Shown here: positions 1 through 5,715 of the stretch, one piece after another
Numbering within the stretch: the first letter of the stretch is position 1
Layout: each line of letters begins with the position of its first letter
Source of the DNA: Edaphobacter acidisoli
Lineage (GTDB): Bacteria > Acidobacteriota > Terriglobia > Terriglobales > Acidobacteriaceae
Reading direction: 5' to 3'
DNA length: 64,000 nucleotides
NCBI RefSeq assembly: GCF_014642855.1
Contig: NZ_BMJB01000001.1
Location: forward strand, 558,001-622,000
The notes under the pieces: model-generated
Database searches by the model: none
What the model was told of the DNA's origin: nothing
What the model saw: only the letters and a program-made list of their open reading frames with translations
Made by a program: the position numbers and the translations under genes

Positions 1-19
1 TGGGGTTTGTTGGGTTCGT

Positions 20-76
20 ACCTGGGGCTTCGCCCCAGGCTGGTATGAATCGGGCCTTTGGCCCTCGCGCTTCGCG
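20..76. repeat. Cluster of three short palindromes (REP-like)
   Basis: Three hairpin-forming palindromes follow each other: CCTGGGGCTTCGCCCCAGG at about 20-38, GGGCCTTTGGCCC at about 52-64, and TCGCGCTTCGCGA at about 65-77. They lie downstream of the FRG-SET gene, which runs leftward. The rest of bases 1-216 holds no convincing gene. The arrangement resembles acidobacterial intergenic REP-like elements and could also act as a transcription stop. The palindromes are seen directly; the class is inferred. Confidence 0.6.
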
Positions 77-216
77 ATCCGGGGGCAATGTATTGTGTTT
101 CAGGTTGGTGGGCACGATTGGTTCAGGGGGCCTGAATGCAGATTTTTTGGTTCGTGGCGGGGTCGAGATTTTACTTCCCCACCCGTCGGCAAAGTGCACA
201 AGCGCCACCGCAGACT

Positions 217-1452
217 TTACTTCGTCTTCTTCGCTCGCCTTCGATTGCGCTTCTCTGAAGGTTCTGGTTCGTCGCTAAAACTGCTGTAATCGATCGTTAG
301 TTCTTGTCCTGCTGGGATCCGGCGTTCTGCATAGAAGTCATAGCTCTCGTCACATCTGGTATTTGGTTTCTTGGAGTCATTCATGAACCATGCTGGTGTA
401 AGCCGATTAAAGGATGTCGGGCACCCATAGCGATCTCCCTTGATGATGGCGAAATCGTCGTAGAGTCGCCGCAACTCCGGGTTTTTAGGGAGAAGTTCCT
501 TGCTTAGCCAGAAGACCTCTTCATTCTCCTCAGCGAATATGCGAGTGCCTTTAGGGATATCTCTAATTGCGAATACACCCACACCTTCCTTGTGGAGGCT
601 CGAAGGCTTGATGCGAACATAAACCCCACGATGCGGTGAATCCGTTTTTGCATCTTTGTAGGCAGTTGCTAATGCACGTCCAAGACCCTCGAGATCGGGA
701 AATATAGTCGTGTCATCGATTCCGTAATCTTTTAGATTTAGCCGAATCCCCTTCACGGCATGGCCCGGTATGATGATCTTCTTTAAGCAGGGCCTCGCGC
801 CCTTCATGAAACGATCAAACCCATCTGCTTCACGACCATGAACAGTGAAGCACGATTTTTGACTACTGATTCGTCGCGCAATATGAGTGGGAAAGATTGC
901 GACCGGGGATTGTGGGATCATCCTTCCTGCCCAACGGGGTGGTAGCCAACGGGCGACCGGTTTGCAGTCCTTCGGGTTTGCCCCGACGGCACTCGGTGAA
1001 ATGACCTCTCCTCTCTTGATAACGCGCCTGTTCAATTCATACGGATTGAGTACCCATACAGAGGAGTCGTAATAACCCGGATTATCACGAACCGCGAAGT
1101 ATAGGGCGATGACAGGGCTTTCTGTCCAATCTAACAATCTTGTTGGGGCGCCGTAATGTTGCATCAGAAAGTAGAGATCCCAATCTACAGTAGGCATTGA
1201 TTCAAAACGACTCAATGCTGGCGCTCGGATGGCAAACTCTTCTCTGATTTCATCCTCAGTATCGGCATCACAGCATCCGATCCTCAAAATGTTTGGCCAG
1301 AGTTTCCACTGTTTTCTTTGTTGTCCGCGATACCATGGCCCACTGACATCTTCACTGTCGAACCGCCATTCAGCGCGAATTTCAGAGGTTACAGACAGGA
1401 ATTCTTCAAGATTTTCTGCGACCCAATTAAGGTGGTCCTTTTTTGTGCTCAC
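217..1452 (-). CDS. FRG domain-SET domain fusion protein
   Basis: A 411-residue protein with two domains rarely seen together. Residues about 36-265 form an FRG domain: the WYRGQ signature is at 40-44 and the hallmark QHYGAPTRLLDW at 98-109. Residues about 277-391 form a SET lysine-methyltransferase-like domain, with GVGVFA at 290-295, FMNDSKKPN at 356-364 in the place of the usual NHSCxPN, and GQELTIDY at 382-389. The C-terminus is a basic tail (KRNRRRAKKTK). It lies 22 bases behind uvrB on the same strand. A hand-counted line (601-660) is 47% GC against 67% in uvrB (2641-2700), which suggests horizontal acquisition. FRG proteins often occur in mobile or defence regions, but the biochemical role here is unknown. 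No signal peptide is seen. Confidence 0.8.
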   Translation of the reverse strand: MSTKKDHLNWVAENLEEFLSVTSEIRAEWRFDSEDVSGPWYRGQQRKQWKLWPNILRIGCCDADTEDEIREEFAIRAPALSRFESMPTVDWDLYFLMQHYGAPTRLLDWTESPVIALYFAVRDNPGYYDSSVWVLNPYELNRRVIKRGEVISPSAVGANPKDCKPVARWLPPRWAGRMIPQSPVAIFPTHIARRISSQKSCFTVHGREADGFDRFMKGARPCLKKIIIPGHAVKGIRLNLKDYGIDDTTIFPDLEGLGRALATAYKDAKTDSPHRGVYVRIKPSSLHKEGVGVFAIRDIPKGTRIFAEENEEVFWLSKELLPKNPELRRLYDDFAIIKGDRYGCPTSFNRLTPAWFMNDSKKPNTRCDESYDFYAERRIPAGQELTIDYSSFSDEPEPSEKRNRRRAKKTK

Positions 1453-1474
1453 GTTCGATCCCCTTCAGGAGATG

Positions 1475-3463
1475 TTAACTAAACAGGAATTCTTTGGTGC
1501 GGAGTTCTTTGACCGTGTCGCGGAGTTTGGCGGCGCGTTCGAATTCGAATTTTTTGGCGGCTTCGCGCATTTCGGTTTCCAGTTTGGCGATGTAGGTGTC
1601 TAGTTCTTGTTGCGTGGCGAAGTCGGGGACGCCTTCGGTCTCTTCGGTGAGGTCGGCGTAGTCGGCTTTTAGGATGCCGGCCAGCGACATTTCGGTGGCG
1701 CGGATGACGGATTGCGGCGTGATACCGTTTTCTTCGTTGTAGGCTTCCTGGATTTCGCGGCGGCGGTTGGTTTCGTCAATGGCGCGCTGCATGGAGTCGG
1801 TCATCTTGTCGGCGTAGAGGATGGCGCGGCCTTCGAGGTGGCGGGCGGCTCGGCCGATGGTTTGGATGAGGGAGCCCTGGCTGCGGAGGAAGCCCTCTTT
1901 GTCGGCGTCGAGGATGGCTACGAGGGAGACTTCGGGAAGGTCGAGGCCCTCGCGCAACAGGTTAATGCCGATGAGGACGTCGTACTCGCCTTTGCGGAGG
2001 TCGCGGAGGAGCTTGATGCGTTCGAGGGTCTCGATCTCGGAGTGCATGTAGCGGCAGCGGACGCCTACTTCGGTGTAGTAGCTGGCGAGGTCTTCGGCCA
2101 TGCGCTTGGTGAGGGTGGTGACGAGGACGCGCTGGTTTTTTTGCGCGCGGTCGCGGATCTCGGCGAGCAGGTCGTCGATCTGGCCTTTGACGGGGCGGAT
2201 TTCAACGGTGGGGTCGATGAGGCCGGTGGGGCGGATGATTTGTTCGACGACTACGCCTGCGGATTTGGTGAGTTCATACGGGCCTGGCGTGGCGGAGACG
2301 TAGATGACCTGGCCGGTGCGGGTCTCGAACTCTTCGAAGCGCAGGGGGCGGTTGTCCATGGCGCTGGGTAATCTGAATCCATAGTCGACGAGGTTTTGTT
2401 TGCGGCTGCGGTCGCCGTGCCACATGCCGTGGAGTTGTGGGACGGTGACGTGCGACTCGTCGATGAAGATGAGGTAGTCCTTGGGGAAGTAGTCGAGGAG
2501 CGTGGGTGGGGGCTCGCCGGGGAGTCGGCCGGACATGTGGCGGGAGTAGTTCTCGATGCCGTGGCAGTAGCCGACGGACTTGATCATCTCGAGGTCGAAG
2601 CGGGTGCGCTGGTGGATGCGTTGGGATTCGACGAGGCGGCCTTCGCGCTCGAGCTGCGTCTCCCACTCGCCGAGTTCTTCGAGGATGGAGGCGATGGCGG
2701 TGGTCTTGCGCTCGGGCTGGACTACGTAGTGCGACTTCGGGTAGATGGGCAGGCGCGAGTACTTTTGGCGGACAGTGCCGAAGAGTGGGTCGATCTGGGA
2801 GAGCGAGTCGATCTCGTCGCCGAAGAGCTCGATGCGGTAGGCGTTCTCGTCGTAGGTGGGGTAGATTTCGATGATGTCGCCACGGACGCGGAAGGTGCCG
2901 CGGCGGAAGTCGACGTCGTTGCGCTCGTAGAGGATTTCTACGAGGCGGCGGGTGATGTCTTCGCGCTTGATGCGCTGGCCTTTTTCGAGCAGGAGCAACA
3001 TGCCGTAGTAGGCTTCGGGGCTGCCGAGGCCGTAGATGCAACTGACTGAGCTGACGATGATGGCATCGCGGCGTTCGAAGAGCGAGCGCGTGGCGGAGAG
3101 GCGGAGCTTGTCTAGCTCTTCGTTGATGGTGGCCTCTTTTTCGATGTAGAGGTCGCCGGCGGGGATGTAGGCTTCGGGCTGGTAGTAGTCGTAGTAGGAG
3201 ACGAAGTACTCGACGGCGTTGGAGGGGAAGAAGCCTTTGAACTCGTGGTAGAGCTGCGCGGCGAGGGTCTTGTTGTGCGCGAGGATGAGCGCGGGGCGCT
3301 GCAGCTCTTCGATGATCTTGGCCATCGTGAAGGTCTTGCCGGAGCCGGTGACGCCGAGCAGGACCTGGTCTTTTTCGCCGGCGTTGATGCCGGAGATGAG
3401 TTCGGCGATGGCGCGCGGCTGGTCGCCCTGCGGCTTGTAGTGGGTGGAGAGCTGGAAGTCCAT
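1475..3463 (-). CDS. uvrB: Excinuclease ABC subunit B
   Basis: UvrB is the damage-verifying helicase-like subunit of nucleotide excision repair; it is loaded by UvrA and recruits UvrC. The 662 residues match the family's usual length. Visible features are the Walker A motif GVTGSGKT (37-44), the beta-hairpin region [11 protein letters not shown] (91-101) that clamps the DNA strand, a DESH Walker B, the SATPGPYE helicase motif, the QTIGRAARH motif VI and a C-terminal UVR domain (last about 40 residues) that binds UvrC. The ATG at 3463 precedes the canonical opening [15 protein letters not shown]. No LexA-type operator was recognised upstream. It is divergent from the phosphatase gene. Confidence 0.98.
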
Positions 3464-5552: not shown

Positions 5553-5715
5553 GAAATACAGGGGTCTCTCCACTCCGCCGCTACGCGGCTCCGGTCGAGA
5601 TGACGTGTGGCGGGTGGGTGCGGCTCCGGTCGAGATGACGTGTGGCGGGTGGGTGCGGCTCCGGTCGAGATGACGTGTGGTGGGTGGGTGCGGCTCTGGT
5701 TGAGATGACATGCAT
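5553..5715. repeat. Dispersed repeat copy 2 with a 35-bp tandem expansion
   Basis: Starts with the family's left end (AAATACAGGGGTCTCTCCAC) and runs into a tandem array of a 35-base unit that begins CGGCTCCGGTCGAGATGACG. Copies lie at 5586-5620, 5621-5655 and 5656-5690, with a decayed partial copy at 5691-5715. Copies 1 and 2 are identical; copy 3 differs by one base. There are no unique spacers, so this is not a CRISPR array. It fills most of the gap between the monooxygenase and phosphatase genes. Confidence 0.9.

Follow-up and report, generated by a model that had tools for sequence, protein, structure and literature searches.

The DNA analysed here, referred to as the window, is a stretch of 64,000 nucleotides of Edaphobacter acidisoli (contig NZ_BMJB01000001.1, positions 558,001 to 622,000). 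Near its start lies a gene whose product combines an FRG domain with a SET domain, and a gap of 22 bp separates the start of this gene from the stop of uvrB. The locus is organised as follows.

217..1452, minus strand: FRG-SET fusion gene, one intact open reading frame (ORF) of 411 aa with a GTG start.
652..1419, minus strand: FRG region, residues 12-267 (Pfam FRG and PADLOC PDC-S15 matches, predicted fold).
1081-1335, minus strand: FRG Pfam core, residues 40-124 (PF08867 match).
259..642, minus strand: SET region, residues 271-398 (Pfam, alignments, predicted structure).
286-585, minus strand: SET Pfam core, residues 290-389 (PF00856 match).
220..258, minus strand: Lys/Arg-rich C-terminal tail, residues 399-411 (sequence, by eye).
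1460..1466, minus strand: GAAGGGG, possible ribosome-binding site ahead of the GTG start (printed sequence).
1475..3463, minus strand: uvrB (named by eye and in a preliminary description), directly upstream of FRG-SET and co-directional with it.

Profile searches placed both domains above their curated cut-offs. The FRG part matched PF08867 with an E value of 2.2e-21 (77 bits against a cut-off of 25) and contains the RG motif as WYRGQ, and the SET part matched PF00856 with an E value of 9e-10 (39.4 bits against 22.4), a cut-off that five further fusions also exceeded. The PADLOC candidate defence family PDC-S15 covers residues 12-267 (E 2.5e-49), and an NCBIfam scan of the protein gave no match. 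A preliminary description of this DNA had placed FRG and SET in a single reading frame, and this is confirmed by the two profile matches and by nine further full-length fusions. The motifs that it named (WYRGQ, GVGVFA and GQELTIDY, with NHSCxPN altered to FMNDSKKPN) are likewise present.

A search with the single protein gave matches in 44 of 297 genomes of the phylum and 75 of 398 genomes of the family, mostly to the FRG part alone; full-length fusions were found in one of the phylum genomes (the window's own) and in six of the family genomes (own included). The nine further fusions thus comprise five from family genomes, three from named genome contigs (L058, L071 and L076, all Acidobacteriota) and one from a prophage-like viral contig (L134, 67% identity). 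A first scan of the named genome contigs with the single protein gave no match. The five family-genome fusions are 43-51% identical to the query, and each is one open ORF extending from query residue 10-13 to 392-409. For the G654 fusion one TGA was counted within the match, which reaches query residue 400; the ORF match stops at 396, and this TGA is probably the gene's own stop. A Lys-rich C-terminal tail was seen by eye in five of the ten aligned fusions. Both domains are under purifying selection, as the proportion of nonsynonymous differences (pN) is low against that of synonymous ones (pS). Because full-length fusions recur in separate assemblies and pN is low against pS, the fusion is genuine and due neither to chance nor to a frameshift. 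Two relatives are broken into pieces (L060, with the FRG part fragmented, and L107), as would be expected of a frameshift, an assembly join or a decaying chance fusion, but given ten full-length fusions (own included) we regard such an artefact as refuted and give it practically no weight. Neither a missing SET profile match nor a frameshift between two genes, either of which would have spoken against a fused protein, was found.

SET domains are best known from chromatin, and the preliminary description had called them rare in bacteria and eukaryote-like. This view was not supported, as relatives are encoded on 289 genome stretches and 121 viral stretches and the nearest that were found come from bacteria. 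A recent import from eukaryotes was rejected for the latter reason, the eukaryote sequences searched being those in the Protein Data Bank (PDB). The best 80 of the 289 genome stretches and 80 of the 121 viral stretches entered the analysis. The SET loci were split by profile score into 42 close loci, 41 other genome loci and 78 other viral loci, the limit of 125 bits for close loci having been chosen after the scores were seen (no score lies between 128 and 116). The SET profile had been seeded with eight of the 42 close loci. Dropped from the counts were seven loci that repeat contigs already represented and supply their names, Acidobacteriaceae, Sulfotelmatobacter and others (L056, L059, L061, L064, L072, L080 and L086) and L052, in which SET is cut by the contig end. 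The 42 close loci come from several phyla and include two viral contigs; with profile A4, at E values no higher than 1e-15, at least 8 of the 398 family genomes and at least 1 of the 297 phylum genomes had a close SET. In a tree the 42 close SETs fall on one side of a branch supported at 96/95, with eight other SETs opposite. On sequence grounds, the SET part is a member of a distinct subfamily.

A partner was fused to, or located directly upstream of, the SET domain in 25 of the 42 close loci: FRG in 12, the small membrane-protein families B and C in six and four, another membrane protein in one and family D in two. FRG was fused in ten loci and adjoining in two, membrane proteins were fused in four and adjoining in seven, and family D adjoined SET in both cases. 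FRG or membrane partners were thus present at 23 of 42 close loci; among the other loci they accompanied 2 of 41 from genomes and 0 of 78 from viral contigs. After removal of the eight close loci that seeded the profile, 15 of 34 have such a partner. In this count, which looked at N-terminal extensions and upstream genes, L060 and L088 were scored as having FRG next door, the upstream membrane gene of L078 was excluded as housekeeping-like by eye, family D was included manually once an alignment had been made, and L107 was scored as a control although it is in fact a membrane-B-SET gene whose frame breaks further on. All counted partners are N-terminal or upstream of SET, several overlapping it by a few bases. 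A rule that the partner always comes first was rejected, since the original count saw the upstream side only and a downstream check revealed ORFs with at least three hydrophobic stretches behind SET in two close loci (L068 and L091) and in no control locus.

Family B proteins are about 165-180 aa long with 3-4 hydrophobic stretches (L048, L055, L062, L074, L081 and L135, with a fused form in L107). Family C was found in L047, L052, L067, L068 and L069; each family is internally related and the two do not match each other. L077 carries a different membrane domain. Family D (L063, 7018-7917; L075, 7166-7969) has a Cys-rich part and a C-terminal hydrophobic stretch and stands directly before SET in two phyla. 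Outside SET, the scanned members of B, C and D matched no Pfam family above its cut-off, and their one PADLOC match was a weak one of the family C protein of L069 to PycTM (E 0.027). Families D and B gave no match on plasmids. Family B is spread over five named phyla and a viral contig, C over three phyla, FRG over two and a viral contig, and D over two. These results show that one SET subfamily is associated with several unrelated partner families. An arrangement in which SET is the obligatory antitoxin of a two-gene toxin-antitoxin system was rejected because FRG and family B also occur without SET. A separate observation concerns what seems to be one chromosomal position in two related Acidobacteria: L062 (5102-6097) has a membrane partner before SET there, and L066 (3120-3533) has SET alone.

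The entire N-terminal region of the window's protein resembles FRG proteins (PF08867; PDC-S15), but most relatives of these were found without SET, and 27 of 28 viral FRG loci (L240-L266) show no SET within the available 3-kb flanks. Modelled alone, the FRG part gave a confident predicted structure with a probable resemblance to ADP-ribosyltransferases, a superfamily that includes Tpt1 (8tg3), TreTu/TreX, RES and ParT. It differs from these in that profile comparison revealed no similarity to RES and in that no late-strand catalytic Glu was invariant among 30 aligned FRG rows; some ADP-ribosyltransferases do without this residue. Compared with PDB sequences, the FRG part gave one chance-level match and the whole protein none.

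The structure prediction also contains the SET fold. The window's SET domain retains GVG, N, PN and ELTIDY, and the His of NHS is replaced by Asp (FMNDSKKPN). Of the 42 close rows, between 37 and 42 agree in each of the Gly, Asn, Pro-Asn, Glu and Tyr columns, and a Trp three residues ahead of the Asn is present in 41. The NHS His is kept in 11 of the 42, and the column otherwise has letters such as E, D and N. Of the 11 FRG-linked SET domains that could be scored, 10 lack this His; one fusion has Ser in the catalytic Tyr column. In the other SETs this His is present in 34 of 42 and, for the viral ones, in 68 of 78, hence it is not universal there either. Compared with free-standing bacterial and viral SET proteins, including the structure vSET (3kma), the domains studied here therefore stand apart by their own branch, by the Trp, by the predominant loss of the His and by their linked partners.

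We tentatively favour a model, plausible although somewhat short of probable, in which the gene is a mobile unit by itself and encodes a two-module conflict protein, effector plus SET control. The N-terminal FRG domain would be the effector because of its predicted fold, its PDC-S15 match and the literature; it would probably act on nicotinamide adenine dinucleotide (NAD+), and its activity may be toxic. The C-terminal SET domain, being the constant module, would be a control unit that binds S-adenosylmethionine (SAM) and sets the state of the effector. Since the SAM-site residues are kept, it would most likely act by methylation, whether of the effector, of its own tail or of a target that it senses. 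Elsewhere the same SET subfamily may control other effectors, notably small membrane proteins, and such interchangeable effectors on mobile genes would probably take part in phage conflict, with a phage or mobile element as the putative trigger. The preliminary description had suggested that SET might act after an FRG-dependent event; we found no direct evidence for this, and the partner pattern shifts the emphasis to SET as the constant part.

Several results weigh against this model. Upstream ORFs are no commoner at close SETs (25) than at controls (24), and therefore the difference lies in the kind and variety of the partner. The free tree has intermixed partner labels, with a parsimony count of 8 changes for three labels, but a single origin for each partner class is compatible with approximately unbiased (AU) tests (p 0.426 for FRG, or 0.52 without L088 and L045; 0.168 for B; 0.196 for C). 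The parsimony count is thus weak evidence for exchange, and repeated partner swapping within a class is unsupported. The partners have no invariant lysine, which bears on the methylation step. Together with the missing His, this leaves room for a SET domain that no longer methylates and instead senses SAM, S-adenosylhomocysteine (SAH) or a phage protein by binding it, releasing the effector. The scarcity of the His in close SETs relative to the others, the Ser in place of the catalytic Tyr and the constant module with varying partners all fit a sensor, but the near-complete retention of the other columns does not, and the His side chain is dispensable in some SET enzymes; we consider a sensor rather unlikely. 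Also against the favoured model, most neighbours other than those described below are housekeeping-like and most loci appear chromosomal (largely by eye, with a Pfam tally), which bears on mobility, and no defence-island signal was found with PADLOC and Pfam among 104 neighbouring proteins, analysed without a matched control. These 104 come from a set of 156 selected in favour of partner loci, supplemented manually by a few genes of L134 and L135; 33 PADLOC families were matched, of which the 25 displayed have one or two proteins each, and one GmrSD_N gene lies on L134. Phage defence, as first proposed, is a possible function: the FRG part matches the candidate defence family PDC-S15, but the neighbourhoods gave no such signal.

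The fusion gene has a GC content of 0.491, compared with 0.615 for uvrB and 0.571 for the window. Of 17 genomes of the genus searched, 14 (own included) had a uvrB match, leaving 13 relatives. In these, neither FRG-SET nor any other protein of a 19-kb stretch (L040) had a match in the 1.5 kb behind uvrB. The genes behind uvrB differ between relatives, with L215, L222 and L225 sharing a frame with a VVLG/IVLG motif (by eye), and the region directly downstream of uvrB (window 1-1474; L215-L227) is a possible insertion spot. No exact repeats of at least 10 bases, direct or inverted, are shared by the two flanks of the gene. Related genes lie near mobile-element functions: L134 has tail genes at one flank, and a phage integrase and the GmrSD_N gene at the opposite one; near the family B and SET genes of L135 are an AAA gene, a repressor-like gene and a Mu transposase; L076 has a type IV secretion system coupling protein and ArdC, and phage integrases are near L080 and L088. 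Because of the low GC, the absence behind uvrB in relatives and the related fusions beside prophage, conjugation or integrase genes, the gene looks accessory and transferred, in line with the transfer first suggested from its GC content.

These data bear on two further explanations. A bifunctional enzyme that ADP-ribosylates and methylates one target, serving regulation and not defence, would account for the constraint on both domains and for the co-directional position 22 bp behind uvrB, but this position is not conserved (gene there in 0 of 13 relatives) and plain membrane-protein partners share the same SET; we judge it unlikely. The gene might alternatively be phage or mobile-element cargo that serves the element, in superinfection exclusion or counter-defence, and was captured by chromosomes. 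L134, L135 and L076 would suit such an origin, the mostly chromosomal-looking remainder with its housekeeping neighbours would not, and the proposal, which overlaps the favoured model, appears quite improbable.

CBASS (cyclic oligonucleotide-based antiphage signalling system) and Pycsar (pyrimidine cyclase system for antiphage resistance) are immune systems of modular build, in which the control part stays constant and the effectors can be exchanged. The constant SET with differing effector-like partners, and the weak PycTM match in L069, are reminiscent of these, but no cyclase, known sensor or defence island was seen. That the SET loci form a hitherto undescribed class of conflict systems, prokaryotic and phage-borne, with a SET-fold, SAM-dependent constant control unit and interchangeable effectors (FRG and unrelated membrane or membrane-linked families), is a still more tentative proposal. 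The coupling of SET relatives to quite different partners in bacteria and phages suggests an undescribed kind of molecular switch. If SET gates toxin-like effectors, a group of bacterial SET genes would acquire a testable purpose, SAM-dependent protein modification would be an immune switch, and FRG, widespread and little-studied, would gain a likely fold and a natural regulator. The open-licence papers returned by literature searches yielded no description of an FRG-SET fusion or SET-effector module and no role of a SET domain in bacterial immunity. Text searches of PMC7159879, PMC3980110, PMC8195603 and PMC13092281 gave no mention of FRG, and PMC9503650 cites work on Frg in immunity.

Some observations concern other SET genes and the window itself. 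Free-standing SET genes are common on the viral contigs L136-L213, 68 of 78 retaining the His, and six Synechococcus phage records also match. The related SET genes of L079, L082, L083 and L084 encode an NHN motif, and three of them stand immediately behind a GNAT acetyltransferase-like gene (by eye). In 11 of the 41 control loci the upstream gene belongs to a single family, a sugar-nucleotide reductase by eye; these reductase-linked ordinary SET genes are mostly from Bacteroidota (L097, L113, L114, L119, L120, L123, L124, L125, L130, L132 and L133). In L057 a purine enzyme gene (GARS; 618-2966) directly before a close SET gene has an internal LAGLIDADG match, probably an intein. Finally, a tandem repeat is present between two genes of the window at 5585-5709, with a 35-bp unit in 3.6 copies and 96% matches.
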